IMG/VR virus record: IMGVR_UViG_3300037508_001008
Span: 1-64,000 of that record
Reading direction: 5' to 3' (one strand)
DNA: 64,000 nt
Source: a virus
The first letter of the stretch is position 1; each line of letters begins with the position of its first letter. The notes below the pieces were generated by a model, which saw only the letters and a list, made by a program, of their open reading frames with translations, was not told where the DNA came from and searched no databases. Both the position numbers and the translations under genes were made by a program. Shown here piece after piece: positions 53,062 through 64,000 of the stretch.

Positions 53062-53325
53062 ATGAAAGTATCAGAAATAATCAACTCGTTGGTGTATCGT
53101 CAAACAGGCAGGGATGAATACATCCTTTTGCCTGAGGGTACTCATGTCATTGATACGAATGGCTTCTCAGAAGTCAAAATCGAGAAGCTCATCAAGGCCT
53201 TCATGGCTTTCGATGAGGCGTATGAGGGGAACTCAGTCTGGTCATTGCACCAGGAAGTAACAGTCAGCAAGAAGGGTACTTCAATTGTGGTGGATGTCTA
53301 CCACGAAGAGAGCACTCTTCACTAA
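53062..53325 (+). CDS. Unknown cassette protein (87 aa)
   Basis: Unrecognised alpha/beta protein with LPEGTHVIDTNGFSEVKIEK and a C-terminal beta hairpin (QEVTVSKKGTSIVVDVYHEE). GGAGGT is the Shine-Dalgarno. Its stop codon is the first unit of a TAAG array. Confidence 0.6.
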   Translation: MKVSEIINSLVYRQTGRDEYILLPEGTHVIDTNGFSEVKIEKLIKAFMAFDEAYEGNSVWSLHQEVTVSKKGTSIVVDVYHEESTLH

Positions 53326-53353
53326 GTAAGTAGATAAGTAAGTAAGTAAGTAG
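53323..53353 (+). repeat. (TAAG)n all-frame stop array
   Basis: Seven 4-nt units (one TAGA variant) plus TAG. A period of 4 places TAA in all three frames. Confidence 0.85.
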
Positions 53354-53360
53354 AAGGGTT

Positions 53361-53398
53361 GTTCCCGGGGATTTCGGTCCTCGGGAACTCCCTTTTTT
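53361..53398 (+). terminator. Cassette terminator, GTTCCCG family, copy 3
   Basis: Same 28-nt hairpin as at 51803, with a six-T tract. Confidence 0.93.
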
Positions 53399-53402
53399 GG
53401 GG

Positions 53403-53418
53403 ATAGACCATTGGGGTC
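53403..53418 (+). promoter_or_regulatory. TATAG start element with 5' hairpin
   Basis: GGGGATAG (ATAG 53403-53406) and GACC-ATTGG-GGTC (53406-53418), identical to the element at 53011. Confidence 0.55.
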
Positions 53419-53452
53419 AGTCCACAACTCACCAACGAAAGGAGGTGAAATA

Positions 53453-53629
53453 ATGGCTCCCACCTGGGACTCGGTTGGTGTTTGTTCGCTTTGCGGACAG
53501 GACATAACTGTAGAAGAGGTGGTGGATTACCAGTACAAGCTCCCTACAGGGGAACTTGGAACAACGGTTCACCGCACCAGGGATGAATCCATGCCGCTCG
53601 TTCACGGGCAGTGCGTCGATTCTCTCTGA
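53453..53629 (+). CDS. Small Cys/His protein, probable zinc finger (58 aa)
   Basis: ATG 53453 follows AAAGGAGGTGAA, a near-perfect Shine-Dalgarno, and is preferred over the upstream TTG. CSLCGQ near residue 10 and HGQC near the C-terminus form a CxxC...HxxC site. Function unknown. Confidence 0.65.
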   Translation: MAPTWDSVGVCSLCGQDITVEEVVDYQYKLPTGELGTTVHRTRDESMPLVHGQCVDSL

Positions 53630-53715
53630 GACCCTCGTCCCACAAGCCGCTACTTGAAAGAGAGTAGCCGGGGTGAACACTCCTAACCTGGGAACAGAAT
53701 GGAGGCAACTCGTCC

Positions 53716-53766
53716 CTACCCTGGGGATCTTCGGATCCCTGGGGTAGAGACCCTACCCTTTTTTTT
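53716..53766 (+). terminator. Cassette terminator with UUCG tetraloop
   Basis: Stem CTACCCTGGGGATC / GATCCCTGGGGTAG (two wobble pairs) around TTCG, 53716-53747, followed by a short spacer and an eight-T tract. The stop codon of the gene lies about 90 nt upstream; no further ORF is seen between. Confidence 0.92.
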
Positions 53767-53770
53767 GAGG

Positions 53771-53788
53771 ATAGGGGAAAGGCCCCTA
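53771..53788 (+). promoter_or_regulatory. TATAG start element with TAGGGG hairpin
   Basis: GAGGATAG (ATAG 53771-53774) and hairpin TAGGGG-AAAGG-CCCCTA (53772-53788), then GAAAGGGGAA before ATG. The same element occurs at 56784. Confidence 0.55.
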
Positions 53789-53814
53789 GCTCATTCTCTT
53801 GAAAGGGGAATATA

Positions 53815-53958
53815 ATGGGTCAACCATATGAATGCATGGATGGGGTGTGTCAGGACGTAGTGTCCTGGTCACCTATGGGAATTGCAGCTGCAGTAGCCAT
53901 TACGGTTATAGCTGTTTGCATCATTGCTTACGTTGTTGGAGAAATCCGACGCAAATAA
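53815..53958 (+). CDS. Small single-pass membrane protein (47 aa)
   Basis: A short ORF with AAAGGGG Shine-Dalgarno: a Cys-containing N-terminus (MGQPYECMDGVCQDVVSW), one membrane helix (MGIAAAVAITVIAVCIIAYV, residues 21-40) and a basic end (EIRRK). It fits the cassette pattern exactly between a start element and a TAAG array. Probably inserts in the host membrane. Confidence 0.7.
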   Translation: MGQPYECMDGVCQDVVSWSPMGIAAAVAITVIAVCIIAYVVGEIRRK

Positions 53959-53974
53959 GCAAGTAAGTAAGTAG
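53956..53974 (+). repeat. (TAAG)n all-frame stop array
   Basis: TAAG-CAAG-TAAG-TAAG-TAG beginning at the stop codon of the membrane-protein gene. Confidence 0.75.
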
Positions 53975-53981
53975 TTGAGTT

Positions 53982-54031
53982 GTTCCCCGGGGATTGGCAG
54001 AGATGCTGGTCCTCGGGGAAACTTCTTTTTT
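53982..54031 (+). terminator. Cassette terminator, expanded GTTCCCC hairpin
   Basis: GTTCCCCGGGGA / TCCTCGGGGAAAC with an enlarged, partly paired loop (53982-54022), then a T-tract. Related to the GTTCCCG family. Confidence 0.85.
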
Positions 54032-54035
54032 GACC

Positions 54036-54062
54036 ATAGACCCCCGAACAACCGAAGGGGTC
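54036..54062 (+). promoter_or_regulatory. TATAG start element with GACCCC hairpin
   Basis: ACCATAG (ATAG 54036-54039) and hairpin GACCCC / GGGGTC (54039-54062) with a 12-nt loop, then AGAAAGG and the GTG start. Confidence 0.55.
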
Positions 54063-54074
54063 AGAAAGGTTGTC

Positions 54075-54362
54075 GTGAAGAACGAATGCGTTTCCTGTGG
54101 GAAACAGTATAGCAATGCAAAGTACACACTGCCCGTCCTCCCTAATGGAGAAATGGGTTACTGCGCTAGTTGCAGAAAGGAGGTAATGCAATTGGAAGAC
54201 ATGTATGGTGAGCCTGCAGCTTACCACGACAACATGTGTCAAAATGCTGACTACAACGGCAGCATTAATATGTTGGAAAAGCGTTATAACCAATGGCGTC
54301 ATGTAGAAAGAAAGTTGCGTCTTATCTGTGAAGTAATTACACAGATAAACCGACGCAAGTAA
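54075..54362 (+). CDS. Zinc-finger-like protein (95 aa)
   Basis: GTG 54075 with AGAAAGG 5 nt upstream is the likely start; a longer frame would run back into the terminator. CVSCGKQY and CASCRKEV form a CxxC...CxxC knuckle pair (residues about 5-40), followed by a helical C-terminal half (INMLEKRYNQWRHVERKLRL). Probably nucleic-acid or protein binding. Confidence 0.65.
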   Translation: MKNECVSCGKQYSNAKYTLPVLPNGEMGYCASCRKEVMQLEDMYGEPAAYHDNMCQNADYNGSINMLEKRYNQWRHVERKLRLICEVITQINRRK

Positions 54363-54390
54363 ATTAGTTAAGTTAGTTAAGTTAGTTGAA
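54360..54390 (+). repeat. TTAG/TTAAG stop-rich array
   Basis: TAAATTAG then two copies of TTAAGTTAG and TTGAAG; a degenerate relative of the TAAG arrays with stops in several frames. Confidence 0.65.
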
Positions 54391-54393
54391 GTT

Positions 54394-54435
54394 GTTTCCC
54401 CTGGGGCATTTGCCTTGGGGGAAACTTCTTTTTTT
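54394..54435 (+). terminator. Cassette terminator, GTTTCCCC hairpin
   Basis: GTTTCCCC / GGGGAAAC with an inner GGGGC...GCCTT stem (54394-54425) and seven T. Confidence 0.9.
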
Positions 54436-54438
54436 GGG

Positions 54439-54454
54439 ATAGATCAACCGGATC
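54439..54454 (+). promoter_or_regulatory. TATAG start element with GATC hairpin
   Basis: GGGATAG (ATAG 54439-54442) and GATC-AACCG-GATC (54442-54454), then AGAAAGGGG before ATG 54479. Confidence 0.5.
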
Positions 54455-54478
54455 AGTCCATAACAGAAAGGGGCTATC

Positions 54479-54724
54479 ATGGCCTTGTTATTTCAAGAAG
54501 GAAAGGTGATTGGCTCCCAGCCTTCACCGAACATTGGGGATGTCTTGGACTTCCACAACTGCTTCGGAAAAGTCCTGGGATATGATGATCCTGTATCAAC
54601 AAGCGAAATCTCGCAAGAGATTAGACTGTGGGTCCAGGACCTGAATAACTTTTCCCTGTTTGAGGCTGTGTTGGTAAACACTTACCTCGGTATGGGGGAG
54701 TGGAGAATGCGCGTTCGTCGCTGA
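54479..54724 (+). CDS. Unknown cassette protein (81 aa)
   Basis: Unrecognised. Mixed alpha/beta: NIGDVLDFHNCFGKVLGYDD then a helix-rich C-terminus ending RMRVRR. AAAGGGG precedes ATG. Confidence 0.6.
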   Translation: MALLFQEGKVIGSQPSPNIGDVLDFHNCFGKVLGYDDPVSTSEISQEIRLWVQDLNNFSLFEAVLVNTYLGMGEWRMRVRR

Positions 54725-54729
54725 CTCCA

Positions 54730-54756
54730 TAAGTAAGTAAGTAAGTAAGTAAGTAA
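54730..54756 (+). repeat. (TAAG)6 all-frame stop array
   Basis: Six perfect TAAG units and a TAA, starting 5 nt after the gene's TGA; the purest array in the window. Confidence 0.9.
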
Positions 54757-54761
54757 AGGTT

Positions 54762-54796
54762 GTCCCTGGGGAGAAATCCCTGGGGACTTCCTTTTT
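54762..54796 (+). terminator. Cassette terminator, GTCCCTGGGGA family
   Basis: GTCCCTGGGGA-GAAA-TCCCTGGGGAC (54762-54787) then five T; a close copy lies at 57058. Confidence 0.92.
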
Positions 54797-54800
54797 GCCA

Positions 54801-54816
54801 ATAGACCATCGGGGTC
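54801..54816 (+). promoter_or_regulatory. ATAG start element with GACC hairpin
   Basis: GCCAATAG (ATAG 54801-54804) and GACC-ATCGG-GGTC (54804-54816), followed by GAAGGCAAGGAGGAA before ATG 54839. Confidence 0.6.
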
Positions 54817-54838
54817 GAAGGCAAGGAGGAAACAGAAA

Positions 54839-55306
54839 ATGGCAAAACGCAAGAGAAAGGAGCGGAAGGAGAATTGGAGTAAAATCCAACCTCTTCAACC
54901 GAAGTATAAAGAGGATGGATACGATTTTCATCCTCCCTTTACGGAAGTTGACTTCTTCGTTGGTGAAGTAGACCAGATCTGCAAAGATCATGGCTACTAC
55001 ATCAATGTAGTCACCTTTCTTGTCCCGACCCAGTTCTTTCTGCAGAGCAGGGAGAACCCGAACGAGAACTACTACGTTCGCACTCGTGGATACCGCTGGT
55101 CGGTAACACAAGTCAACGAAGAGAGTTTTAGTTCAGGCGAACTGCTGATCTTTAAAGAGGTTGAAACCGTTTCTGACGGCATGAAGATCGGTAAGGGTGT
55201 CAGGGGCACTCAACCCACAGCTCTCATCGCAGAGGGCCTATGGGAGCAGGGGCTTCGTACATTAACAGATATTTTGTTAGTCATAGAAGCCAATCGTCTC
55301 AAATAG
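54839..55306 (+). CDS. Unknown cassette protein (155 aa)
   Basis: Unrecognised. A strongly basic N-terminus (MAKRKRKERKENWSKIQ), central beta-rich part (YVRTRGYRWSVTQVNEESFS) and a helical end. AAGGAGG is the Shine-Dalgarno. The basic tail suggests nucleic-acid contact. Confidence 0.6.
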   Translation: MAKRKRKERKENWSKIQPLQPKYKEDGYDFHPPFTEVDFFVGEVDQICKDHGYYINVVTFLVPTQFFLQSRENPNENYYVRTRGYRWSVTQVNEESFSSGELLIFKEVETVSDGMKIGKGVRGTQPTALIAEGLWEQGLRTLTDILLVIEANRLK

Positions 55307-55330
55307 ACGATCAGTCACGTTAATCCACTA

Positions 55331-55378
55331 TCCCAGGGGGGGGCTTCGGTCTCCCTCTGGGAAGGAGGTCTCTTTTTT
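55331..55378 (+). terminator. Cassette terminator with UUCG loop
   Basis: TCCCAGggGGGGgc-TTCG-gtCTCCCtCTGGGA (55331-55362), then GGAGGTC and six T. Confidence 0.85.
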
Positions 55379-55382
55379 GCCA

Positions 55383-55398
55383 ATAGACCATCGGGGTC
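55383..55398 (+). promoter_or_regulatory. ATAG start element with GACC hairpin
   Basis: Same element as at 54801: ATAG 55383-55386 and hairpin 55386-55398, followed by GGCAAAGGAGAAAAC before the whiB-like ATG. Confidence 0.6.
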
Positions 55399-55419
55399 GA
55401 AGGCAAAGGAGAAAACAAA

Positions 55420-55665
55420 ATGAAATGGCAAGATCAAGGCGCCTGTAAGGGTGTCACAGAACACGCAATATTCTTCCCAAACACAAACGAGAAAGGATGG
55501 CAGGCCAAACAAGCCAAGGCAATAACAATTTGCCGAGGCTGCCAAGTCAAGGAGGAGTGCCTCAACCATGCCCTCCAAAATGATGAACACTTCGGTGTTT
55601 GGGGCGGGACCACCGAAAGGGGACGCCGAAGGATCAGGAGTCTCAGGCTCCAGGTCCAAAGCTGA
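55420..55665 (+). CDS. WhiB-family transcriptional regulator (81 aa)
   Basis: The WhiB signature is complete: Cys9, Cys38, Cys41 and Cys47 (C...CxxCxxxxxC) to hold a [4Fe-4S] cluster, the GVWGG turn (59-63) and a basic C-terminal region (ERGRRRIRSLRLQ) for DNA contact. WhiB-like proteins bind the primary sigma factor or DNA and are confined almost entirely to Actinobacteria and their phages, so this gene gives the best host clue. It probably redirects or represses host transcription. Confidence 0.92.
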   Translation: MKWQDQGACKGVTEHAIFFPNTNEKGWQAKQAKAITICRGCQVKEECLNHALQNDEHFGVWGGTTERGRRRIRSLRLQVQS

Positions 55666-55672
55666 CAAAAAG

Positions 55673-55720
55673 GGTATGCCCTCTTCTACGCAACCAGCGT
55701 AGGAGGGGGTTCCCCTTTTT
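55673..55720 (+). terminator. Cassette terminator, CTACGC-aacca-GCGTAG family, copy 1
   Basis: CCCTCTTCTACGC / GCGTAGGAGGGGG (core 55679-55709) with outer GGG...CCCC and five T. An identical copy with its flanks lies at 57614. Confidence 0.92.
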
Positions 55721-55724
55721 GCCA

Positions 55725-55740
55725 ATAGACCATCGGGGTC
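55725..55740 (+). promoter_or_regulatory. ATAG start element with GACC hairpin
   Basis: ATAG 55725-55728, hairpin 55728-55740, then GGCAAAGGAGAAAACAG and ATG 55764. Confidence 0.6.
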
Positions 55741-55763
55741 GAAGGCAAAGGAGAAAACAGAAA

Positions 55764-56000
55764 ATGAAACAAAAGTTCAGAATTGATGAATGGTGCAAAC
55801 TCATCATGAACCACGAGCCATATCAGCTCACTTTCGAATACGACCGCGATATAGACGCGTACTACGCGTTAATCAAAGATTTTTGGGGTCGGAATGTGTC
55901 TGACATTGCATTCATGGACGAAATTGACGGAGAGATGTGGCCTGTCTACCAAACCTCCGACATTCTTTCGAATTCCGCGTTAGACCTCGACTGGGACTGA
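55764..56000 (+). CDS. Acidic cassette protein (78 aa)
   Basis: ATG 55764 with AAAGGAGAAAA upstream; longer upstream frames run through the terminator. Unrecognised acidic protein, ending SNSALDLDWD. Acidic small proteins of this kind often inhibit host DNA-binding proteins, but that is only a possibility here. Confidence 0.6.
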   Translation: MKQKFRIDEWCKLIMNHEPYQLTFEYDRDIDAYYALIKDFWGRNVSDIAFMDEIDGEMWPVYQTSDILSNSALDLDWD

Positions 56001-56085
56001 GACGATACGGAAACATTTGAGTAGTACTCTCTGAAAAATGATGACGACGACAATCCATGGGAGTAGTCACCCCATGAAGAAGGAT

Positions 56086-56128
56086 GTCCCCTTGAACCTC
56101 TCGTATGGGTTCAGGGGACTCCCCTTTT
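56086..56128 (+). terminator. Cassette terminator, GTCCCCTTGAACC stem
   Basis: GTCCCC.TGAACC / GGTTCA.GGGGAC (56086-56119) with a short loop, followed by CCCC and four T. Confidence 0.88.
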
Positions 56129-56132
56129 GCCG

Positions 56133-56148
56133 ATAGGCCATCGGGGCC
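56133..56148 (+). promoter_or_regulatory. ATAG start element with GGCC hairpin
   Basis: GCCGATAG (ATAG 56133-56136) and GGCC-ATCGG-GGCC (56136-56148). The G-C for A-T exchange in both arms relative to the GACC/GGTC version is a compensatory change that supports the hairpin. Confidence 0.65.
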
Positions 56149-56171
56149 GAAGGCAAAGGAGAAAACAGAAA

Positions 56172-56708
56172 ATGAAACATAAAAATCCATATAAAAGAGT
56201 CAAGCAGTTGCTTGAATCTTTTGAAATTGCAAATGGACCAATTGAAATCCGTGAAATTACAAATGGACCAATTGAAATCGGTCAAGTAAGGTCAATCAGT
56301 GTTCAGTTGGATGATGGAAGTCTGCAACGATATGTTGCTGTGGCTTCAATGCCAGAACAAGCTTTTGTTCAAATCATTCTCATTGGAGATGATGAGCAGG
56401 GGGCTGGCTACAACGACATCATTCTTGAACAAAATGAACGACCAATGCCGCTTTCGTCTGTCTTACAAACAGACTGGACATTTGGGGTTTTAATTGAAGA
56501 TTTGGGGCCGGTTTATTCCACCTTAAGTCAGGAAACACTTAATCTTGTTTCCAAAATGAATAATTGGTCGGGACGGGATTTGTCTCGCGTTGGGTTTCAT
56601 CCCAATGACCAAGACCCAAACCGGATTGAAATAATTGAAGAGAACTTCCAAGTTTCCCATTGGGCGCTGGGTCGTGTTTTAAGTCATTTAGAAAATCTGG
56701 AAAACTAA
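56172..56708 (+). CDS. Unknown cassette protein (178 aa)
   Basis: Unrecognised. Starts MKHKNPYKRVKQLLESFEIA, then contains a duplicated 10-residue unit EI(A/T)NGPIEI(R/G), encoded by two adjacent 30-bp repeats (56222-56281). The rest is alpha/beta with no motif. Its codon usage is more AT-rich than flanking cassettes, suggesting a separate origin. Confidence 0.6.
   Translation: MKHKNPYKRVKQLLESFEIANGPIEIREITNGPIEIGQVRSISVQLDDGSLQRYVAVASMPEQAFVQIILIGDDEQGAGYNDIILEQNERPMPLSSVLQTDWTFGVLIEDLGPVYSTLSQETLNLVSKMNNWSGRDLSRVGFHPNDQDPNRIEIIEENFQVSHWALGRVLSHLENLEN
56222..56281 (+). repeat. Two tandem 30-bp repeats within the 178-aa gene
   Basis: Two adjacent, nearly identical units containing AAATGGACCAATTGAAATC, in frame, encoding NGPIEI twice. 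Confidence 0.85.
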
Positions 56709-56722
56709 TTTAATTTTTAACG

Positions 56723-56733
56723 TAAGTAAGTAA
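56723..56733 (+). repeat. Short (TAAG)2 stop array
   Basis: TAAG-TAAG-TAA, 14 nt after the gene's stop and just before the terminator. Confidence 0.65.
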
Positions 56734-56740
56734 AAGGTTT

Positions 56741-56779
56741 GTTCCCGGGGATTTCGGTCCTCGGGAACTTCCTTTTTTT
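56741..56779 (+). terminator. Cassette terminator, GTTCCCG family, copy 4
   Basis: Identical hairpin and T-tract to those at 51803 and 52291. Confidence 0.93.
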
Positions 56780-56783
56780 GAGG

Positions 56784-56801
56784 ATAGGGGAAAGGCCCCT
56801 A
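56784..56801 (+). promoter_or_regulatory. ATAG start element with TAGGGG hairpin
   Basis: Same as at 53771: ATAG 56784-56787 and TAGGGG-AAAGG-CCCCTA, followed by AAAGGAGGTGAAAAC-ATG. Confidence 0.55.
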
Positions 56802-56829
56802 GCTCATTCTCTTGAAAGGAGGTGAAAAC

Positions 56830-57024
56830 ATGGATGAATACATTGAATACTTGAAGGAGGTAGCGGACCAAGCAATCCGCCACATCTCCGACTGCACGTG
56901 TGATCCTTGGCACGTGTGCCGACCCAGAGAGCGTCTCATTGACGAACTCAATGGGATCACACATGGATATTCCCGCAACACAAGTGCGTTCCGGGAAGAC
57001 TACAAGTTTTGGTGGAATTGCTGA
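56830..57024 (+). CDS. Small Cys-containing protein (64 aa)
   Basis: ATG 56830 follows a near-perfect AAAGGAGGTGA. Helical N-terminal half (YIEYLKEVADQAIRHIS), then CTCDPWHVC (possible CxC...C metal site) and a C-terminal WWNC. Unrecognised. Confidence 0.6.
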   Translation: MDEYIEYLKEVADQAIRHISDCTCDPWHVCRPRERLIDELNGITHGYSRNTSAFREDYKFWWNC

Positions 57025-57057
57025 GATATTCAGCCACTAAGTAGTCACATAAAGGTC

Positions 57058-57092
57058 GTCCCTAGGGAGAAATCCCTGGGGACTTCCTTTTT
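57058..57092 (+). terminator. Cassette terminator, GTCCCTAGGGA family
   Basis: GTCCCTAGGGA-GAAA-TCCCTGGGGAC (57058-57083) and five T; near copy of that at 54762. Confidence 0.92.
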
Positions 57093-57096
57093 GCCG

Positions 57097-57112
57097 ATAG
57101 GCCATCGGGGCC
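57097..57112 (+). promoter_or_regulatory. ATAG start element with GGCC hairpin
   Basis: ATAG 57097-57100 and GGCC-ATCGG-GGCC (57100-57112), then GGCAAAGGAGAAATAC and ATG 57136. Confidence 0.6.
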
Positions 57113-57135
57113 GAAGGCAAAGGAGAAATACAACA

Positions 57136-57591
57136 ATGGAAAACAATAACGAAACTCGAGCCGTGTTCATCAACGCGGGAGAGAACCGTGTTATGCTCAA
57201 CCCGCTCAAGGGGCAATGGGAACACAAGGGCAAGAAAGTAAACTTGTGGTTCGATGTCCCTAACGGCGCGCGCGAGTTCGTCGTTGACGCCCTACAGAAG
57301 ACCATGATGGTCAACGACAAGGGTCAGCAGGTCATGGTGAACTCAAACGTGATCATCTGGGAAATGCCCACGAACCTCATGGTGTTGAATAAGAACGCCA
57401 AGAATGAGTGGTATTTCACTGTCACGATCAACGACGATGGCTTGGAAGAATGGTTAGATATGGTCACCGAAAACGTCCGTCCAAAGGGCGCAATCAGTGA
57501 GAAGAATGAACCAGTCATCAGCGACGCTCGAGCAAAGCTGCAAGAGAAGTTGGCTCAAATCAAGAAGATCGACGAAGACTTCGATTTCTGA
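57136..57591 (+). CDS. Putative single-stranded DNA-binding protein, paralog 1 (151 aa)
   Basis: Paralogous to the protein at 62119: shared FINAGENRVMLN / WVNAGESKIVLN, (D/N)(V/A)PNGxRE and an acidic C-terminal tail ending DEDFDF. A compact beta-rich core followed by an acidic tail with terminal Phe is the design of phage ssDNA-binding proteins such as T7 gp2.5 and of bacterial SSB tips. Predicted to coat ssDNA and recruit replication and recombination partners, fitting with recA nearby. The family call is an inference from the tail and the duplication. Confidence 0.5.
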   Translation: MENNNETRAVFINAGENRVMLNPLKGQWEHKGKKVNLWFDVPNGAREFVVDALQKTMMVNDKGQQVMVNSNVIIWEMPTNLMVLNKNAKNEWYFTVTINDDGLEEWLDMVTENVRPKGAISEKNEPVISDARAKLQEKLAQIKKIDEDFDF

Positions 57592-57613
57592 TCCACGGTA
57601 AAGCTAGCGAAAG

Positions 57614-57661
57614 GGTATGCCCTCTTCTACGCAACCAGCGTAGGAGGGGGTTCCCCTTTTT
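57614..57661 (+). terminator. Cassette terminator, CTACGC-aacca-GCGTAG family, copy 2
   Basis: Same stem as at 55679 (core 57620-57650), with the same outer bases and T-tract. Confidence 0.92.
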
Positions 57662-57665
57662 GCCA

Positions 57666-57681
57666 ATAGACCATCGGGGTC
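57666..57681 (+). promoter_or_regulatory. ATAG start element with GACC hairpin
   Basis: ATAG 57666-57669 and GACC-ATCGG-GGTC (57669-57681), then GGCAAAGGAGAAATAC and ATG 57705. Confidence 0.6.
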
Positions 57682-57704
57682 GAAGGCAAAGGAGAAATAC
57701 AACA

Positions 57705-58259
57705 ATGGATAACAAGGAAAAATCCCGCAAGCAGGTGTATCGAGAGATTCGCCAGCGTCAGAAAGCTCAGATCAAGAAGGCCAGAAAGAAGGCCAGAATT
57801 CAGGAAAAGGCCTACAAAAAGGTCAATCCATTTTGGACATTCTTTATCCTTCTCACCTCAGCATGGGTGCAGACTGCAGGGTTCAAGGTTGACAAGAAGG
57901 GACGTCCCTTCTTCTCGGTCAAGTTCAAGACCGAAGGCCAGCCAAAGGCTCACCTTGTCAAGACCGCATGCGTTTGGCGGGATGACAAGGGCAGTTACCG
58001 CGTTCTCATGAACGTCTCTCGCAGTTACTGGTTTCGTGTCTACCATGAAAACGGTAGCTACGAGATGAAGGAAGCCACCAAGCACTACAGCATTAGCTTT
58101 CTTCTGAAGAACCAGAAGACAGTGCCTGTGTTAATCAATCAGAAGGTGATGATCGGTTTCTTGCCGATTGAACTGGATGACATGATGAACGCGATCATGG
58201 ACCGTGCCTTGGGGTTGGACATTCCAGTTCCGCAGAACACGGACGACGAGCCGTTCTGA
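57705..58259 (+). CDS. Basic protein with SSB-like C-terminal tip (184 aa)
   Basis: The N-terminal ~45 residues are strongly basic and helical (KQVYREIRQRQKAQIKKARK). A hydrophobic segment follows (PFWTFFILLTSAWVQTAGF), then a beta-rich domain, ending NTDDEPF. That end is very like the SSB C-terminal peptide DDDIPF, which docks RecO, RecQ, PriA and other partners. It might be a DNA-binding replication accessory or a mimic of the host SSB tip. Not otherwise recognised. Confidence 0.5.
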   Translation: MDNKEKSRKQVYREIRQRQKAQIKKARKKARIQEKAYKKVNPFWTFFILLTSAWVQTAGFKVDKKGRPFFSVKFKTEGQPKAHLVKTACVWRDDKGSYRVLMNVSRSYWFRVYHENGSYEMKEATKHYSISFLLKNQKTVPVLINQKVMIGFLPIELDDMMNAIMDRALGLDIPVPQNTDDEPF

Positions 58260-58270
58260 CAGGAGGTTTT

Positions 58271-58311
58271 AGTCCTCTCTACCTACGCAGCCAGCGTAGT
58301 TAGGGAGGACT
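58271..58311 (+). terminator. Cassette terminator, CTACGC-agcca-GCGTAG family
   Basis: AGTCCTC...CTACGC / GCGTAG...GAGGACT (58271-58311). No long T-run directly follows, but an AT-rich stretch does. Confidence 0.8.
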
Positions 58312-58395
58312 TTCCTCTTATGTATAGTTATTTAGTATTAATTAAAACTTCTTTTTTGCGCCTAGGCCATCGGCCTTACCTCAGATAGGGGGCGC
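58312..58395 (+). promoter_or_regulatory. Start region of the 836-aa gene with larger 5' hairpin
   Basis: An AT-rich stretch with GTATAG (ATAG 58323-58326) and CTTCTTTTTTGCGCCTAGG. The 5' structure is larger than elsewhere: GCGCC (58358-58362) / GGCGC (58391-58395) enclosing AGGCC-ATC-GGCCT (58364-58376). AAAGGAGGGC precedes ATG 58409. Confidence 0.5.
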
Positions 58396-58408
58396 AAAGG
58401 AGGGCATC

Positions 58409-60919
58409 ATGCCCAATAACAAGGAGCCTGAACAGGGCACCGAGGCCGCCGGACCTACTCCGGCAACCCGCGAGAGGGATGTCCGACAGGGCTTCTTTCA
58501 CGGGATCGTAAAGCGCACAGGTCGCTGGCTTCGGCTGGTGTCAGGTGCACCTCTCCTCTCAGGAGATGAGGTATTTGAAGAGTTTGAGGGAGGGCCTTAT
58601 GCCCCCGCATTCCTCATGCACTTCTTTGCTGATCGATTCCGCGTTGAAGTCCGAAAGGTCAACGAGAAGGCGCTTAAGGGCGTCAAGCCGGTGATCAAGT
58701 CGGATGGACCCGTGGTACTTCCCACGCCAATCTCTAGCGAAGTGATTCGCTTCAGTACGGCGTCAGAGCAGTACGTTGTCCGAGTTAAGGGCAATGACGG
58801 CTGGCTTGCCTCTTTCAAGGAGATCGGTCTTTTGATCGGTAATTCGAAGAAGATGAGCAAGCGTCTCGTGGAGCTTGTGCGCTTGTCGTGCATGTGGCTC
58901 TATCGAGATGCCAAAAATGCTCTGAAAGTGGAAGTCATCGACCATAAGGCGTTGGGCATGCCCGACAGCTACGTGGACGGTGCTACCGCAATCTCCAAGG
59001 GATTGGCTATCAAGTGCGTGAAGTCGAATACTTCGTCTTCGCGTGCTTGGCGAGCTCGTCACATCTGGGCGATCCGCAGTGGTAAAACCGCTGTTGTTCA
59101 GATCCGGATGATGTGCGAACTGGGCTTGATTAAGGGTAATGCCGTAATCGTGTCCAAGTCAATGATGAACGGTTTCGACATTCGTACGTTTGAGCCAAAC
59201 ATTAAGACTGAGGTTCGCACCTCTGGGTGGCAGTGGTTGACGATTGAACCGACATATGGGGCTATCCCTGTAAAGTCGGACGATCAAACCCATGCCATCT
59301 ATCGGCGTGTGGAAGGTCTTTATGACTCAACCACGTTACTCGATACTCTTCAGAAGAGCCTGGAGCAATTCTTCCAGGACCTAAAAGAGGGTAAGAGGTC
59401 TGAGTGGATGGAAAAGTTGGCAGATAATGCCGACGAACTCCTTCACGAAGATGAGGAGGACAAGTTCGGTCAAAACCGAGGAATGGTCCAGCTGATTCAG
59501 GAAACGGTTGCTAAGCTTAATAGGCTTGGTGTACCTCTACTGAGCTGTCAGACCCTCTTGTTCATGTCCGTGAGAGGACTCACACTGTCATTGCTTGGCG
59601 ATAGACGGGATGAGTTTAATCACGAAGTGAAGGGTGAAGTATGGCGTGATAAGAATCGGCACTGGTTTCCCGTGCCGTGGGCGTATGCCGCTCACGTTTA
59701 TACAAAGGAGGTACTGGAAATCTTTGGGTACAAGATGCCCAAAGGTAACCATGCCTTCTACCACGAGCAGACTCACAGCTTCGTGGTACCTGGTAAATTC
59801 TTTGAGGTTAACTTAAAGAATCATGGTGGTCCAGACTTAGATGATACGGTGAAGGTTCATATTCGCCGTGTCCGTCATAAGAATGGGCGAATCCAGACAA
59901 TGGCAATCATAATGCGCAACCCGAACGATTTCGGGGAGTGGTCAATGATTTCCGTTGGCAAGGACATGGGACCTGTATTCCATGCCTACGACCAGGAACC
60001 GCCAATGGTAGATTTGGAACAGCTAACCAAGTTCGTTCCACAATTTACGAAGCTGGAGAAGAGACTGAATATTGGTACTTTACCGGCCATGAAGAATCCA
60101 CCCAAATTGGGACCGGAGTTTTCGTTGTCCGATGAAGCCAGAATCAGACTCGCTGCAATGGGTTTTCCGCCAGGCGTTGGAGGGACTGTAATCCCGAAGA
60201 TGATCTGGAACGCACTCCTTGATCAGCCGATCATGAATCTTGTAGACTTGAACGAGAACATCATTGACGTTCTCCAACAAGGTCAGGGCTCTACGGCTGA
60301 CACAAATGCCATCAAGCAATGGGTGGCAGATGTGTTTCTCGATCTTGGTCAGCAATTGAGTTTCAAACTGGATCCATTCTGGTTCCATACTCGAATGCCA
60401 AAGCCAATTATTGAGGAACAGGGATGGCAAGCCGATGAGGCAGAAAATTCCTCGTGGATGACCCTTCACCTGGAGAGGGAGTCAATGGCTCGTAAATACA
60501 TTAAGGAAATGACGGATTGGCTTAATTGTCAGATCGTTATGCCTGAAGTATTGTCGAACATTGACTTTACGAACCAGGAATACACCAATGGTAACATTAA
60601 GTTGGCCAAGGTGCGTTCCGATTATCGACGTATCATTAAGATGCAATCTAGTGAAGCGTGGGTAAATTGGTTCTCCGGAAAGTTGGCTGAGTCTGATGAA
60701 GACGATGAGCGTGGTGAAGAGTATACGGATCGTATGATCTTACTACTCGCTCAACGCGCAATTGTCCAGAAGAAGGCGAGCCATCGATCCAATTACGACC
60801 AGTGGCTGTATTCGTTCTCTACGAAGAGCGAACGGCACCCGGTAGATTGGTATATCCGGGCTCTCCGACGGGTACAGGATGGAACCTACGATTGGTTTCG
60901 TTCCAACAGTCAGCCCTAA
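58409..60919 (+). CDS. Large unrecognised protein of the replication region (836 aa)
   Basis: The largest right-arm gene. No Walker, helicase or polymerase A/B motif is visible. Around residues 470-535 there is FEVNLKNHGGPDLDDTVKVH, then RIQTMAIIMRNPNDFGEWSM, a Gly-then-acidic-cluster arrangement that loosely recalls the DxDGD loop of two-barrel RNA polymerases of the YonO/cellular RdRP class; the exact DxDGD is absent, so this is weak. The region 330-370 is acidic and helical, and the C-terminus is basic and aromatic. Lying between SSB-like genes, it is a candidate replication or transcription enzyme. Codon use is GC-rich and uniform, indicating a well-expressed intact gene. Confidence 0.5.
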   Translation: MPNNKEPEQGTEAAGPTPATRERDVRQGFFHGIVKRTGRWLRLVSGAPLLSGDEVFEEFEGGPYAPAFLMHFFADRFRVEVRKVNEKALKGVKPVIKSDGPVVLPTPISSEVIRFSTASEQYVVRVKGNDGWLASFKEIGLLIGNSKKMSKRLVELVRLSCMWLYRDAKNALKVEVIDHKALGMPDSYVDGATAISKGLAIKCVKSNTSSSRAWRARHIWAIRSGKTAVVQIRMMCELGLIKGNAVIVSKSMMNGFDIRTFEPNIKTEVRTSGWQWLTIEPTYGAIPVKSDDQTHAIYRRVEGLYDSTTLLDTLQKSLEQFFQDLKEGKRSEWMEKLADNADELLHEDEEDKFGQNRGMVQLIQETVAKLNRLGVPLLSCQTLLFMSVRGLTLSLLGDRRDEFNHEVKGEVWRDKNRHWFPVPWAYAAHVYTKEVLEIFGYKMPKGNHAFYHEQTHSFVVPGKFFEVNLKNHGGPDLDDTVKVHIRRVRHKNGRIQTMAIIMRNPNDFGEWSMISVGKDMGPVFHAYDQEPPMVDLEQLTKFVPQFTKLEKRLNIGTLPAMKNPPKLGPEFSLSDEARIRLAAMGFPPGVGGTVIPKMIWNALLDQPIMNLVDLNENIIDVLQQGQGSTADTNAIKQWVADVFLDLGQQLSFKLDPFWFHTRMPKPIIEEQGWQADEAENSSWMTLHLERESMARKYIKEMTDWLNCQIVMPEVLSNIDFTNQEYTNGNIKLAKVRSDYRRIIKMQSSEAWVNWFSGKLAESDEDDERGEEYTDRMILLLAQRAIVQKKASHRSNYDQWLYSFSTKSERHPVDWYIRALRRVQDGTYDWFRSNSQP

Positions 60920-60960
60920 TTAGAGGGATCAAGTAGCCACTTAATGTGGTGAATGTCACA

Positions 60961-61009
60961 AGAGGAGCCTCTGCTACACATCCAGTGTAGTTAGAGGCTC
61001 TTCTTTTTT
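60961..61009 (+). terminator. Cassette terminator, CTACAC-atcca-GTGTAG family
   Basis: GAGCCTCT.GCTACAC / GTGTAG...AGAGGCTC (60965-61000) then six T. CG versus CA arm changes relative to other family members are compensatory. Confidence 0.92.
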
Positions 61010-61011
61010 GC

Positions 61012-61027
61012 CTAGGCCATCGGGGCC
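61012..61027 (+). promoter_or_regulatory. CTAG start element with GGCC hairpin
   Basis: GCCTAG and GGCC-ATCGG-GGCC (61015-61027); ATAG is replaced by CTAG. Followed by AACGGTAAGGAGAAAC before ATG 61048. Confidence 0.55.
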
Positions 61028-61047
61028 AACGGTAAGGAGAAACAGAA

Positions 61048-61467
61048 ATGAAAAAGACAACAAAGAAGGCGCAGGCCAAAAAGGTGTCCCGAGAGGAGCT
61101 AATCGATCAGATCGAAAAGCTGTTCGAAGGAGGCCAAAAAGCGTTGAACCTCACGCAAAAGCGAAACATCCTGAAGAAATTGCAGGAGTTCCGAAACAGC
61201 GAATTGGAATTCAACGCCGAACTGGCTCAGCAAATCATTGAGGCTCTTGCCAAGTACCAGGGAATGAAGAAGGTTGCTACTACACCTCAGCCCCTCAACC
61301 CACAGGGGAAAGCCCAGGTCAAGTGCCTTGGCTACTGGAACTCAAACGGCAAGCATGTGTGCGAAGAAATCCTTGAGGGAACCCGACAGGAAATCGGACG
61401 CAAGGCCAATCGGTGCGAAAGCTGCCGAAAGGAATACACGCCTCTCAAGGCAATCAGCAACAGCTGA
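61048..61467 (+). CDS. Basic protein with C-terminal zinc ribbon (139 aa)
   Basis: Lys-rich N-terminus (MKKTTKKAQAKKVSREELID), helical middle, then a Cys cluster CLGYWNSNGKHVCEEI ... NRCESCRKEY (about residues 94-130) typical of a zinc ribbon. Likely nucleic-acid binding. GTAAGGAG is the Shine-Dalgarno. Confidence 0.65.
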   Translation: MKKTTKKAQAKKVSREELIDQIEKLFEGGQKALNLTQKRNILKKLQEFRNSELEFNAELAQQIIEALAKYQGMKKVATTPQPLNPQGKAQVKCLGYWNSNGKHVCEEILEGTRQEIGRKANRCESCRKEYTPLKAISNS

Positions 61468-61493
61468 TCACAAAAGCAACACAAAAGGGTTTT

Positions 61494-61537
61494 GTCCCCT
61501 CCTACGTTCAGTACGTGGGTAGGGGACTTCCCTTTTT
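61494..61537 (+). terminator. Cassette terminator, GTCCCCT stem
   Basis: GTCCCC...TACG / ACGTgGG.TAGGGGAC (61494-61527) followed by TTCCC and five T. Confidence 0.88.
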
Positions 61538-61540
61538 CGC

Positions 61541-61556
61541 CTAGGCCATCGGGGCC
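61541..61556 (+). promoter_or_regulatory. CTAG start element with GGCC hairpin
   Basis: GCCTAG and GGCC-ATCGG-GGCC (61544-61556), as at 61012, then GGTAAGGAGGGC before ATG 61575. Confidence 0.55.
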
Positions 61557-61574
61557 AACGGTAAGGAGGGCATT

Positions 61575-61802
61575 ATGCCTAAGAAAAACAAATTCAGAAA
61601 GTACAACTTGGACAACCGAGATTGCGACTACTGTGGAGAATTTCACTGGGCGGGTGAAATGACTTACCTGGGAAACATTCCGGGAAGAGGACAGACATTC
61701 ATCTGCTCAAAGTGTGAGCTTCGGAGGAACGCAATCCAGAAAGCCAAGAAAGTGAAGAAAGAGCGAGAAGACCTCAAGGCATCGCAGCCAAAGTTGTTCT
61801 GA
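61575..61802 (+). CDS. Small zinc-finger protein (75 aa)
   Basis: CDYCGEFHW (about residues 17-20) and CSKCELRR (44-47) are the two CxxC knuckles; a basic helical tail follows (AIQKAKKVKKEREDL). Probably nucleic-acid binding. Confidence 0.75.
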   Translation: MPKKNKFRKYNLDNRDCDYCGEFHWAGEMTYLGNIPGRGQTFICSKCELRRNAIQKAKKVKKEREDLKASQPKLF

Positions 61803-61807
61803 AGCTA

Positions 61808-61861
61808 AGAGAGTAAGGTCATCATTCATATTGACAACATGGATGATGACCTTCTCTTTTT
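61808..61861 (+). terminator. Terminator with AAGGTCATCAT stem
   Basis: AGAG...AAGGTCATCAT and its complement ATGATGACCTT...CTCT (61808-61857) with a 17-nt loop and a U-tract. Confidence 0.88.
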
Positions 61862-61893
61862 CTTATAGTATATTAGTCTTTTTTTATTTATAG
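61862..61893 (+). promoter_or_regulatory. Two successive TATAG elements
   Basis: TTTTTCTTATAG (ATAG 61865-61868) and TCTTTTTTTATTTATAG (ATAG 61890-61893). The second shows the T-tract/TATAG core without a terminator in front, indicating that the T-run belongs to the start element itself. Confidence 0.55.
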
Positions 61894-62118
61894 CTGGCTA
61901 GGCGCATTCTAAACCCCTTCGGGGGGTGTGAATACACCTCTAGCGAAAAGAATGTAGTGAAAGTCACTCATTCTAAAAAGAAGGGATTAACTTCCTTCTA
62001 AAAAGAAGGGATTCTCTTCATTCTAAAAAGAAGGGACTAACTTCCTTCTAAAAAGAAGGGAGAGTTTCCCAACGAGATACCTGCTCGTACACAGGTTTGC
62101 CATCAAGGAGGAAACGAA
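61893..62118 (+). ncRNA. Structured 5' leader or small RNA with pseudoknot potential
   Basis: About 225 nt without an ORF before the second SSB-like gene. GCTAG (61897-61901) can pair with CTAGC (61940-61944) and CATTCT (61905-61910) with AGAATG (61949-61954), which cross, giving an H-type pseudoknot; inside is CCCC-TTC-GGGG and next is AGTGA-AAG-TCACT. Four hairpin repeats and AAGGAGGAAAC follow. Either a regulatory leader of the SSB-like gene or a separate RNA. Confidence 0.4.
61969..62062 (+). repeat. Four inverted-repeat units with exact 25-bp period
   Basis: TTCTAAAAAGAAGGGA begins at 61971, 61996, 62021 and 62046. Each is an inverted repeat (CTTCT-AAAA-AGAAG); odd and even units differ in flanks (CATTCT versus CCTTCT), so the array is a duplicated 50-bp pair. 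Related single copies lie near 62746, 63104 and 63689. Confidence 0.9.
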
Positions 62119-62619
62119 ATGGCACAAAATACCAAGTCCAACAAGACCATCAGCGTGTGGGTCAACGCGGGAGAAAGCAAGATCGTGTTGAACCGCAAGG
62201 ATGGTGCAGAATGGAGTCGTCCACTCTTCTTCAATGCTCCTAACGGAGTCCGCGAGAAGATCGCCATCTGGCTCGGAAAGGTGTTGACCGACGAGAACGG
62301 CAAGCCCGTACTCAAGCTCAACAAGATCACGGGTCAGATGGAGAAGCAGGTCGACTTCACGAAGAAGGCCACGAACAACTGCGAGTGGGAGATGGACCTG
62401 AAGATGGTTAAGACAGAAGCCATCAAGTCGGGCGCAAACGCTGGCAAGTTGGCGGACTCGATCACCATCACGGATGAGAACTTGTCCGAATGGTTGAAGC
62501 AGTTGGTGTTCACCAAGCGCGGTAGCATCCGTGCAAACGTGGCAACCACGCTCAGCGAGTTCGAGCCGACCATCATCGGTGACGACGACGAGGACGGTGA
62601 CGACTTCGAGGATTTCTGA
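62119..62619 (+). CDS. Putative single-stranded DNA-binding protein, paralog 2 (166 aa)
   Basis: Related to the 151-aa protein at 57136 (WVNAGESKIVLN, NAPNGVREKIAIWLGK, then a C-terminal ITDENLSEWLKQLVF / INDDGLEEWLDMV block) and ends in a strongly acidic tail with terminal Phe (DDDEDGDDFEDF). This is the most GC-rich, strongly codon-biased gene of the window, as expected for an abundant ssDNA-coating protein. GGAGGAAACGAA precedes the ATG. Confidence 0.55.
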   Translation: MAQNTKSNKTISVWVNAGESKIVLNRKDGAEWSRPLFFNAPNGVREKIAIWLGKVLTDENGKPVLKLNKITGQMEKQVDFTKKATNNCEWEMDLKMVKTEAIKSGANAGKLADSITITDENLSEWLKQLVFTKRGSIRANVATTLSEFEPTIIGDDDEDGDDFEDF

Positions 62620-62647
62620 TCCTCAGAGTCAGCGGTCAAGGAACGAA

Positions 62648-62681
62648 GGTTGGGTACTACGAGAAATCGTGGTACCCAGCC
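62648..62681 (+). terminator. Terminator-like hairpin after SSB-like gene
   Basis: TGGGTAC.TACGA-GAAA-TCGTGGTACCCA (within 62648-62681). A T-tract follows only 25-30 nt later, within the next start element. Confidence 0.75.
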
Positions 62682-62702
62682 TAAGTTTCTTATAAAAAGA
62701 TT

Positions 62703-62789
62703 CTTTTTTATTTATAGAGCTCTCTTTAATCTTTGAGCACATACAAAAAAGAAGGGGGATTATCATCTCTCTTTATTTTTTACTTATAG
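62703..62789 (+). promoter_or_regulatory. Two TATAG start elements flanking a short leader
   Basis: TTCTTTTTTATTTATAG (ATAG 62714-62717) and TTTATTTTTTACTTATAG (ATAG 62786-62789), 72 nt apart. The stretch between has AAAAAGAAGGG (62746-62756), a half-copy of the 25-bp repeat. The second lies 21 nt before ATG 62811. Confidence 0.55.
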
Positions 62790-62810
62790 ATACCAGAAAG
62801 GAAATAAGTC

Positions 62811-63107
62811 ATGGTGATGTTAATTAATGGTATGCTTTTGGGCATTTGTTTTACTTTTGCCGGCGCATATCTATATCAAACAGCTCGTTATCGCTTAACT
62901 CATGGTAAAAAGATCCTTGTTGCAAAGCAAGAGGTTGGATATGTCATTAGTTGTAGATATAATGGTTCAAAGCATTGGTTTTTTATTGATGAGTATGGTC
63001 AAAAGTCACAAGATCATTTCGATAAAAAGCAACATGCAGTAAGAACATGCAAAAAAGACTTCTTATCACGGCGACACAAGCAAACCACTATTGCACGTAT
63101 CGCCTAA
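62811..63107 (+). CDS. Small membrane-anchored protein (98 aa)
   Basis: One N-terminal membrane helix (LINGMLLGICFTFAGAYLYQ, about residues 4-23) and a basic cytoplasmic domain (RYRLTHGKKILVAKQEVGYV ... RRHKQTTIARIA). AGAAAGGAAA precedes ATG 62811. Its stop is followed at once by the large structured region. Confidence 0.6.
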   Translation: MVMLINGMLLGICFTFAGAYLYQTARYRLTHGKKILVAKQEVGYVISCRYNGSKHWFFIDEYGQKSQDHFDKKQHAVRTCKKDFLSRRHKQTTIARIA

Positions 63108-63660
63108 AAAGAAGGGTGTGTGAACTCCACTAGGGGAGTATAAACCGTTTTAAGCCTAGTGCGTTCCCCAGATAACACTGGGGAGATAACTGAGTTTCCG
63201 CGTACATACCAGTGTACGTCCGGCCCGATTATAAATCGGAATAAGGATATAAGATCTGGATAATCTTATATGGAATATTATATTATGATTGCAGATCCCG
63301 TCATAATATAAGAACTCCGATGCAGGAGGAACCTGCTGCGGTAACCATATTGGTACCGTAATACAGGGAAACAGGTGTAGTCAGTTCTAGTTCAGGACTA
63401 CATCGGCATAGATATAACTAGAGGGCTCTTGTATACGGATGTCCAAAGAACATATTGTTCGGCCTGATCAGCCAGTATATACTGAAAATAATCTCAAGCA
63501 GTTATACTTGAGTACCGGGAGCACCCAGTCCCCGAAGGATGTCGGAGATAGTAAACACTATCAACTGGGCTATTCTAAAGTTCTCCCCCCCGGGTTGAGC
63601 ACCTTGCGTTTTTACCCTCCTTTTCGCAAGAGTGCTCCCCGGGAGAGATCATAGTCTTCT
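63108..63660 (+). ncRNA. Large structured RNA candidate (~540 nt)
   Basis: No convincing ORF; a 71-codon frame at 63439-63654 lacks a Shine-Dalgarno and overlaps the helices. Visible stems (5' arm/3' arm): 63128-63134/63155-63161; 63166-63171/63178-63183; 63201-63206/63213-63218; 63225-63230/63234-63239; 63247-63255/63263-63271 (9 bp); 63278-63288/63301-63311 (11 bp); 63322-63326/63332-63336; 63339-63358; 63376-63382/63396-63402; 63473-63484; 63493-63498/63507-63512; 63547-63552/63557-63562 inside 63524-63529/63564-63569; 63603-63608/63625-63630. Long-range: 63517-63524 with 63632-63639 and 63315-63320 with 63542-63547. Size and ornateness recall phage RNAs such as ROOL or GOLLD; identity is not established. 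Confidence 0.65.
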
Positions 63661-63667
63661 AAAAAAT

Positions 63668-63706
63668 TCTTTTTTCTTTATAATTGTCCCTTCTAAAAAG
63701 AAGGGG
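63668..63706 (+). promoter_or_regulatory. TATAAT start element with CCCTTCT hairpin
   Basis: TTCTTTTTTCTTTATAAT, the T6-N3-TATA core, then CCCTTCT-AAAA-AGAAGGG as 5' hairpin, the same inverted repeat as in the 61969 array. AGAAAGGAACCCTT precedes ATG 63733. Confidence 0.55.
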
Positions 63707-63732
63707 TGTAATACCAACAGAAAGGAACCCTT

Positions 63733-63927
63733 ATGCAGTTAATTAAAAATTTAATAAAGATCTACGCAGCGATTCTTGTATGCTGTGCTATCGCCGGCGC
63801 AATTACCGGTGGTGCAAAAGCAGTTAAAGAGTTGCGCGCAGAAAACAACAAACCATTGTTCAATCATTCTCCAGAATTTCTGAAAATATTGAACCACTAT
63901 GAAAAGAAAGAAAAGGTAGCATCATGA
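63733..63927 (+). CDS. Small membrane protein (64 aa)
   Basis: One membrane helix (IYAAILVCCAIAGAITGG, about residues 9-26) and a charged soluble end (KAVKELRAENNKPLFNHSPE). AGAAAGGA precedes the ATG. Its TGA overlaps the next ATG (ATGA), so unlike most right-arm genes it is part of a coupled pair. Confidence 0.65.
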   Translation: MQLIKNLIKIYAAILVCCAIAGAITGGAKAVKELRAENNKPLFNHSPEFLKILNHYEKKEKVAS

Positions 63928-64000
63928 GTATTTCAAGCAAAATGGGTAAAATTGCAGGTAAGGTCGTGACCGGATCCAAGGCAGCACCCAAAGCAACAAA
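63924..64000 (+). CDS. Partial gene at right edge
   Basis: ATG 63924 overlaps the previous stop and an open frame continues off the window: MSISSKMGKIAGKVVTGSKA then Ala/Pro/Lys. A basic Gly/Lys/Ala-rich N-terminus. Only 25 codons are visible. Confidence 0.5.
   Translation, partial: MSISSKMGKIAGKVVTGSKAAPKAT

Follow-up and report, generated by a model that had tools for sequence, protein, structure and literature searches.

Genes and features at the locus

The window, which is the whole stretch of 64,000 nucleotides analyzed here, comes from a virus record of 67,138 bases. As genes for tail sheath, portal, and terminase are present, the source is a tailed phage. Among named phages, 14 records match the terminase; of the 12 of these that were listed, the best is that of Moorella phage MTATph1, with 36.0% identity.

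Relatives were gathered by terminase (80 kept of 345) and by an alignment of the 367-aa neighbor family (24 loci). Full homologs of the RNA described below, each headed by a pistol ribozyme, are present in G020 (IMGVR 3300020183_000007), L254 (3300018050_001813), and G024 (3300043414_001406), while G008 (IMGVR 3300035689_000037) is a twin of the window, identical over the 553 bases queried. The full sequences number four, two of which are close to each other in the middle domain.

The region at 63108-63660 is flanked by a 98-aa and a 64-aa open reading frame (ORF) (Table 1). The upstream ORF shows 31.9% identity in L254 (69 aa) and 35.7% in G020 (56 aa). The 64-aa downstream ORF is without a match in L254, G020, or G024 at an E value of 0.01, and the genes that follow it (49 aa and 367 aa) match all three at 29 to 42% identity, the values against L254 being 41.7% for the 49-aa protein and 29.5% for the 367-aa protein. 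A sequence-only reading of this locus had seen no credible coding in the region, and our comparison of the window, L254, and G020 agrees, as no conserved reading frame was found. In L254, the longest listed plus-strand ORF (63439-63654, 71 aa) is broken by an 11-residue gap and two stops, and all that is left of it in G020 are pieces of 31 and 7 residues. The longest open stretch of the minus strand is 117 residues in G020, 64 in the window, and 61 in L254.

TABLE 1 Coordinates of genes, signals, and RNA elements in and around the region
Feature	Position	Strand	Remarks
98-aa ORF	62811..63107	+	Upstream neighbor; stop 16 bases 5' of ribozyme
AAAAAGAAGGG promoter-like element	63106..63116	+	7 bases upstream of ribozyme
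Pistol self-cleaving ribozyme	63124..63191	+	RF02679; 45.4 bits vs gathering score of 34.5; E 9.6e-07 (local stretch)
Predicted mature structured RNA	63187..63650	+	~465 nt; predicted 5'-OH end; 3' end inferred; homologous in L254, G020, G024
Hairpin H1	63201-63206 with 63213-63218	+	Loop UACCAG
Hairpin H3	63247-63255 with 63263-63271	+	Loop CUGGAUA, identical in three homologs
Proposed kissing loop	63258-63261 with 63295-63298	+	H3 loop GGAU with H4 loop AUCC; pairable in 3/3 homologs
Hairpin H4	63278-63288 with 63301-63311	+	11-12 bp in window, L254, G020; 2 pairs doubly changed
Hairpin H5	63322-63326 with 63332-63336	+	GCAGG/CCUGC, GCAGA/UCUGC, AUCAGG/CCUGAU, located by hand
Hairpin H7	63375-63382 with 63396-63403	+	G-C to A-U compensatory pair vs L254
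Pseudoknot H8	63387-63392 with 63416-63421	+	H7 loop CUAGUU with AACUAG; 83.3% of cells on MAFFT alignment
Domain H9	63430-63436 with 63475-63481	+	Encloses hairpins H9a and H9b
Hairpin H10	63493-63498 with 63507-63512	+	CUCAAG/CUUGAG vs CUCAGG/CCUGAG in G020; absent from L254
3' H-type pseudoknot, S1	63516-63519 with 63531-63534	+	Within 63516..63569
3' H-type pseudoknot, S2	63524-63529 with 63564-63569	+	Hairpin 63547-63562 inside loop 3
3' compound hairpin	63580..63650	+	-35.3 kcal/mol in isolated fold; probable 3' boundary
AAAAAGAAGGG start-like element	63695..63705	+	Between RNA and next gene
64-aa ORF	63733..63927	+	Downstream flanking gene

A pistol ribozyme at the 5' edge

When the whole window was scanned with Rfam at gathering thresholds, the pistol ribozyme was the sole match. 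It lies at the 5' edge of the region, where the sequence-only reading had overlooked it. The homologs also score above gathering (48.0 bits in G020, 65.3 in L254, and 65.5 in G024). The pistol was drawn with 19 pairs, in P1, P2, P3, and the P1-loop pseudoknot; the window, L254, and G020 form all of them, and 3 are doubly changed. Relative to the Rfam model, the window has a mismatch at one outer P2 position. The alignment puts the two nucleotides that join P3 to P2 at A63186-U63187 in the window; L254, G020, and G024 have GU there. PMC4604425 places the pistol cut between the two junction nucleotides and describes the junction as strict in length and variable in identity. The predicted cut site is therefore the bond between A63186 and U63187. 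The score, the three helices with the P1-loop pseudoknot, the two-nucleotide junction, and the phage location are thus shared with the pistol family, whereas the AU of the window junction differs from the GU that most of the family has. No second ribozyme at the RNA 3' end was found among the Rfam matches.

At many of the pistol sites examined the ribozyme stands just before an ORF, whereas here it heads about 465 nt of structured non-coding sequence. In a rule-based count over 46 sites in fetched loci, a count that includes some false long gaps, the next ORF with a ribosome-binding-like site lay within 68 nt at 27 sites and within 189 nt at 5 more. Apparent pistol-led RNAs in L005, L009, L016, and L247 were rejected, since inspection showed likely closer downstream ORFs missed by the start rule; at the L250 site the same rule gives an ORF gap of 700. 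Tandem pistols were also seen, with eight in G006 (L169) that precede successive genes, each just before an ORF, and seven in G047 (L170), and these suggest ribozyme cutting between phage genes. As pistols are mostly close to the next ORF, with eight in G006, they look like a transcript-cutting device in several phages. Elsewhere, the pistols of L023 and L011 are followed by 420 nt that hold no long frame (open stretches of at most 47 and 70 residues; folding z scores, -3.7 and -4.7, respectively); these stretches are not obviously related to the window RNA. In L021, a pistol precedes what appears by eye to be a tRNA array.

Helices and pseudoknots of the RNA body

The sequence-only reading had described many local stems and long-range pairings in 63108-63660, ending in a long compound hairpin, and both descriptions were borne out (Table 1). 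The H1 stems of the homologs are CGUACA/UGUACG, CACACA/UGUGUG, and CCUACA/UGUAGG, with two of six pairs doubly changed, and G024 has a different hairpin in place of H1. The H3 stems are AUAAGAU/AUCUUAU, GAGAGU/ACUCUC, and AUAGAGAU/AUCUCUAU. The kissing loop between the H3 and H4 loops is put forward tentatively, because the changes there are one-sided only. Two elements score low on the alignment made with MAFFT, namely, H5, in which 53.3% of cells pair there and which is fully paired when located by hand, and H9a, with 73.3%. Pseudoknot H8 reads CUAGUU/AACUAG in the window and L254 and UCAGUUC/GAACUGA, located by hand, in G020. The closing stems of H9 in the four homologs are UGUAUAC/GUAUAUA, CUUGUAUAC/GUAUGCAAG, GUAGA/UCUAC, and GUACAU/AUGUAC, and the tip of H9b is the palindrome UGAUCA in the window, L254, and G024.

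An HDV-like fold, considered for the 3' pseudoknot, was rejected because at most 2 nt lie between S2 and S1'. A long hairpin after the pseudoknot is also present in L254 and G020; the 3' compound hairpin of the window was not among the matches of a simple terminator scan. The nested minimum free energy (MFE) fold is an incomplete picture of this RNA, as two covariation-supported pseudoknots are not representable in it.

Covariation

Helices were read by eye from the homologs and then counted on an alignment of the window, L254, and G020 that MAFFT had built without structural information. On this alignment 91.8% of 318 cells pair, a percentage that is flattered because the structure was derived from the same sequences that were counted. 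Changes on both sides of a pair, found in 25 of the 110 pairs (22 of the 25 outside the pistol), are the stronger point. In slid controls, with the 3' partners moved by 1 to 3 columns, 35.7 to 43.3% of cells pair and 1 to 5 pairs are doubly changed; among 500 letter shuffles, none reaches the observed value for four of five measures and 5 do for the fifth. By hand location, G024 supports P1, the pistol pseudoknot, P3, H9, H9b, S1, and S2, while its middle domain aligns poorly.

For the 3' H-type pseudoknot, five sequences including L271 were compared: 98% of 50 cells pair and 4 of 10 pairs are doubly changed, against at most 58% of cells and 2 doubly changed pairs in slid controls. A scan for the pseudoknot topology found exactly one place in the 121-nt test stretch of the window and none in 200 shuffles. 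It was also positive in L254, G024, and L271 (2, 1, and 1 of 200 shuffles, respectively) and misses G020 because loop 3 there, 37 nt by hand count, exceeds the limit of 36. Judged from these sequence comparisons, 63108-63660 is a real, conserved, structured RNA.

Along a 104-nt block in the middle of the RNA, the window and L254 are identical except for two substitutions and one 2-nt insertion, and both substitutions form a single G-C to A-U compensatory swap across H7. With neighboring proteins only 29 to 42% identical, this near-identity points to strong constraint, recent exchange, or both. Exchange between phage backgrounds would be explained if the region were a self-splicing or mobile intron-like element. 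We consider this highly improbable: homologous recombination or strong constraint would give the same pattern, no group I, group II, or HEARO profile is among the Rfam matches at E values up to 10, no endonuclease-sized ORF lies inside the RNA, and the RNA stands between genes beside the same small-gene cluster in all four phages.

Folding energy

The MFE of 63108-63660 is -191.1 kcal/mol (z, -6.78), and none of 100 shuffles is as low. The body alone gives a z score of -6.53, and its reverse complement gives -5.36. With the ribozyme, the z scores are -7.34 in L254, -6.74 in G020, and -3.73 in G024; those of the bodies alone are -4.76, -6.07, and -2.24, respectively. The region therefore lies below its shuffled controls, as the sequence-only reading had expected, but in this genome such a value is unspecific. 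Of 37 consecutive 400-nt plus-strand windows over 49001-63800 (30 shuffles each), two of which overlap the RNA, 23 have z scores of -4 or lower, and the coding stretch 59001-59400 reaches -7.81. These values give no support to the claim of that reading that the density of structure is far beyond other intergenic regions, and with control windows and coding DNA as low, we have dropped folding energy as evidence of function.

Low folding energy that is widespread in the genome, including in coding DNA, is also what would be expected if the region were non-functional intergenic DNA with chance structure. That explanation has next to no probability in our view, given the ribozyme family match in four homologs, and it is contradicted by the covariation count, in which the compensatory changes (25/110 doubly changed versus at most 5) are far above the slid controls.

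Better-than-expected folding in coding DNA was seen on the plus strand in ORF 58409-60919 and in much of 50600-62600. With codon-preserving shuffles, three segments covering the first 1.2 kb of this ORF have z scores of -5.7 to -7.5; other plus-strand ORFs give -3.2, 1.4, and -3.6, and 12 segments of four minus-strand ORFs give 0.9 to -3.7.

Distribution of the RNA

In a set of 50 records that included 40 terminase relatives, a pistol above cut-off was found in 4 of these 40 (G008, G020, G024, and G025), and among the 14 scanned loci of the 24-locus neighbor family it was found in one (L254); many contigs in both sets are fragments. In G025 the contig ends after the pistol, and only 3' ends are seen in G016 and G015, since the former begins and the latter ends inside the RNA at CAACTGGGC. 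At the same locus, L271/L272 carry a stretch without a recognized pistol and with the same type of 3' pseudoknot, which is a probable distant relative of the window RNA. The RNA is absent at the locus, as read, in relatives including G030 and G041.

The pattern CCCCGAAGGATGTCNGAGA gave 3 viral and 4 genome matches, including the twin of the window and G020; the matches in L173 and L174-L177 were rejected, as no homology is apparent by eye outside the matched bases. A second pattern, CCAGTCC..AGGAT..CAACTGG, gave 27 viral matches, which are the twin, G020, G024, and 24 others. L224, L229, L227, and L215, read from those 24, do not look homologous, and no pistol was found in the 24 records at E values up to 0.1. 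A 24-nt match in G012 looks like coding sequence and was set aside; G013 has another 24-nt match. Searches of named phages with the window RNA and its flanks, the G020 element, and the L254 body, and of plasmids with the window RNA, returned pistol-sized or no matches only. A covariance model of the middle domain (R1), searched against 50 records, scored strongly only in its three sources; five other records scored weakly (E, 0.09 to 0.91; taken as chance), and G024 was not found.

Promoter-like elements and the transcript

Seven copies of the motif AAAAAGAAGGG are present in the window, where 0.15 would be expected; all are plus-strand copies within 61975-63705, and the motif looks like a phage-specific promoter. 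Its copy at 63695 agrees with the independent start element that the sequence-only reading had placed after the region. In L254, G020, and G024, AAAAGAAGGG is absent upstream of the ribozyme, and none lies between the RNA and the next gene. As a separate observation, 8 of 11 related loci checked have at least one copy of AAAAGAAGGG in the orientation of the RNA locus.

Between the end of the upstream ORF and the ribozyme there are 16 bases in the window, 6 in G020, and 2 in G025; in G024 the ORF stops right at the ribozyme, and in L254 a 40-aa upstream ORF runs 20 bases into it before stopping. Stops at such positions in five phages are what trimming of a longer transcript by the ribozyme would predict. 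In the phage of the window, transcription of the RNA probably starts from the AAAAAGAAGGG element at 63106. The upstream motif is lacking in L254, G020, and G024, which have an upstream ORF ending near or inside the ribozyme; in these three the RNA is probably carried on the transcript of the upstream gene, from which it would presumably be cut.

The arrangement of pistols between genes at most sites examined, with the next ORF within 68 nt at the 27 sites counted above, raises the possibility that the pistol only separates the RNA from the upstream message and that the RNA is a structured 5' leader or intercistronic element (riboswitch-like or translation controlling) of the downstream small-gene operon. 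This is the main rival explanation. The downstream genes are common to L254, G020, and G024, in which the lack of AAAAGAAGGG between the RNA and the next gene makes a leader possible. In the window, however, a further AAAAAGAAGGG separates the RNA from the next gene, and the hairpin of -35 kcal/mol closes the RNA. The usual leader is far shorter than this RNA body, which also counts against such a function, and G041 keeps the downstream 367-aa gene family without the RNA. On balance, we regard a leader as unlikely.

As a joint explanation of the findings, we favor, with moderate confidence, that 63108-63660 encodes a stand-alone structured phage RNA that would be freed by pistol self-cleavage and would act in trans. 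On this free-RNA explanation, the pistol would cut itself at A63186/U63187 and leave a 5'-OH RNA of about 465 nt, whose 3' end is placed near 63650 by the compound hairpin. The RNA would fold as local hairpins tied by two pseudoknots and possibly by the kissing loop. Our best guess is that the freed RNA would have a structural or protein-binding role in trans during infection, one comparable to that of ROOL and GOLLD. To our knowledge, the role of self-cleaving ribozymes in phages is an open question. Here the pistol is placed exactly so as to define the 5' end of a covarying RNA, which makes ribozyme maturation of phage non-coding RNAs directly testable.

Comparison with known RNA families

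The body of about 465 nt reaches no Rfam gathering score in the window or in the three homologs. In the window, its one match at E values up to 10 falls on the 3' hairpin and is to a microRNA family (17.8 bits versus a cut-off of 50); the non-pistol matches at this level are to other kinds of families, all far below their cut-offs. The Rfam check that the sequence-only reading had proposed thus yielded the pistol above gathering, and among matches at E values up to 10 it yielded no group I intron, group II intron, HEARO, or OLE profile in the window and three homologs and no ROOL or GOLLD profile in 62640-64000 of the window, L254, L164, and L204. No earlier report of the window RNA was found in the open-access literature, which is weak as an absence. 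With no catalogued family to which it can be assigned, the body probably represents a large phage RNA of a new kind; if this is correct, the small number of large RNA classes known from phages grows by one.

ARAGORN found no tRNA in the window or in L004; in the L254 contig, a single tRNA follows the RNA at a distance of about 5.6 kb. Short tmRNA-like matches of 73 to 78 nt were seen in L164 (4716-4793, about 1.7 kb downstream), L271/L272 (5129-5201), and L004 (about 5420-5555), with scores of 54.6 and 47.3 bits. Their size is about that of the tRNA-like end alone, without the tag region. In the genome of the window, a similar T-arm-like stretch was seen by eye and reached no cut-off.

PMC12286853 describes ROOL and GOLLD as phage-encoded RNAs that assemble into nanocages and have no known function. 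Many GOLLD members are over 800 nt long according to the same source, versus about 465 nt here, and the 3' part of GOLLD, like that of the window RNA, occurs in more homologs than the rest. Like both, the window RNA is a large phage RNA with no known function. Its ornate structure, its pseudoknots, and a total length close to the roughly 580 nt given for ROOL in the sequence-only reading are further likenesses to ROOL. ROOL is often near tRNA islands, whereas the window and L004 are without a tRNA. We know of no ROOL RNA with a ribozyme-trimmed 5' end.

The sequence-only reading had proposed either a new class or a divergent member of the ROOL or GOLLD class. The first part is favored by the covariation, by the finding of no conserved frame, and by the lack of any Rfam family besides the pistol. 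The second part, widened to include a close functional copy assembling into RNA-only multimers, could draw on the phage location, a size near that of ROOL, the pseudoknots, and the palindromic tip of H9b in three of four homologs. PMC12286853 describes symmetric kissing loops that bridge OLE and GOLLD chains, and it notes that the OLE L9.3 kissing loop can be a GAUC palindrome, which may be compared with the H9b tip. Yet neither profile is among the matches of four homologs at E values up to 10, so that membership is not supported; a body of about 465 nt and the lack of a tRNA in the window and L004 speak in the same direction, and the G020 loop, GACG, is not palindromic. We therefore hold a divergent ROOL or GOLLD RNA, or such a copy, to be very unlikely. 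OLE is likewise a large ornate RNA, but its profile gave no match, and OLE, as its name and the abstract of PMC11332333 indicate, belongs to extremophile genomes, unlike the phage found here.

The UGAUCA tip in three of four homologs, with G020 lacking the palindrome, is the only hint of self-association, and we think it quite unlikely that this is a new pistol-released class forming homo-oligomers through that tip. If true, one more RNA-only particle would join ROOL and GOLLD in phages, in this case with maturation by a self-cleaving ribozyme.

Other non-coding stretches at the locus

Other non-coding stretches were seen at the same locus, in L260/L263 (about 1960-2250) and in L261, L265, and L274 (about 2350-2620), with motifs common within each set and apparent compensatory stems by eye. 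Their folding z scores are 0.04 in L260, -4.43 in L263, and -4.76 in L274. A hairpin with ACCUCCC recurs at the locus in L198, L199, L261, L265, L268, and L274, also where the large RNA is absent; this motif resembles the 16S 3' end.
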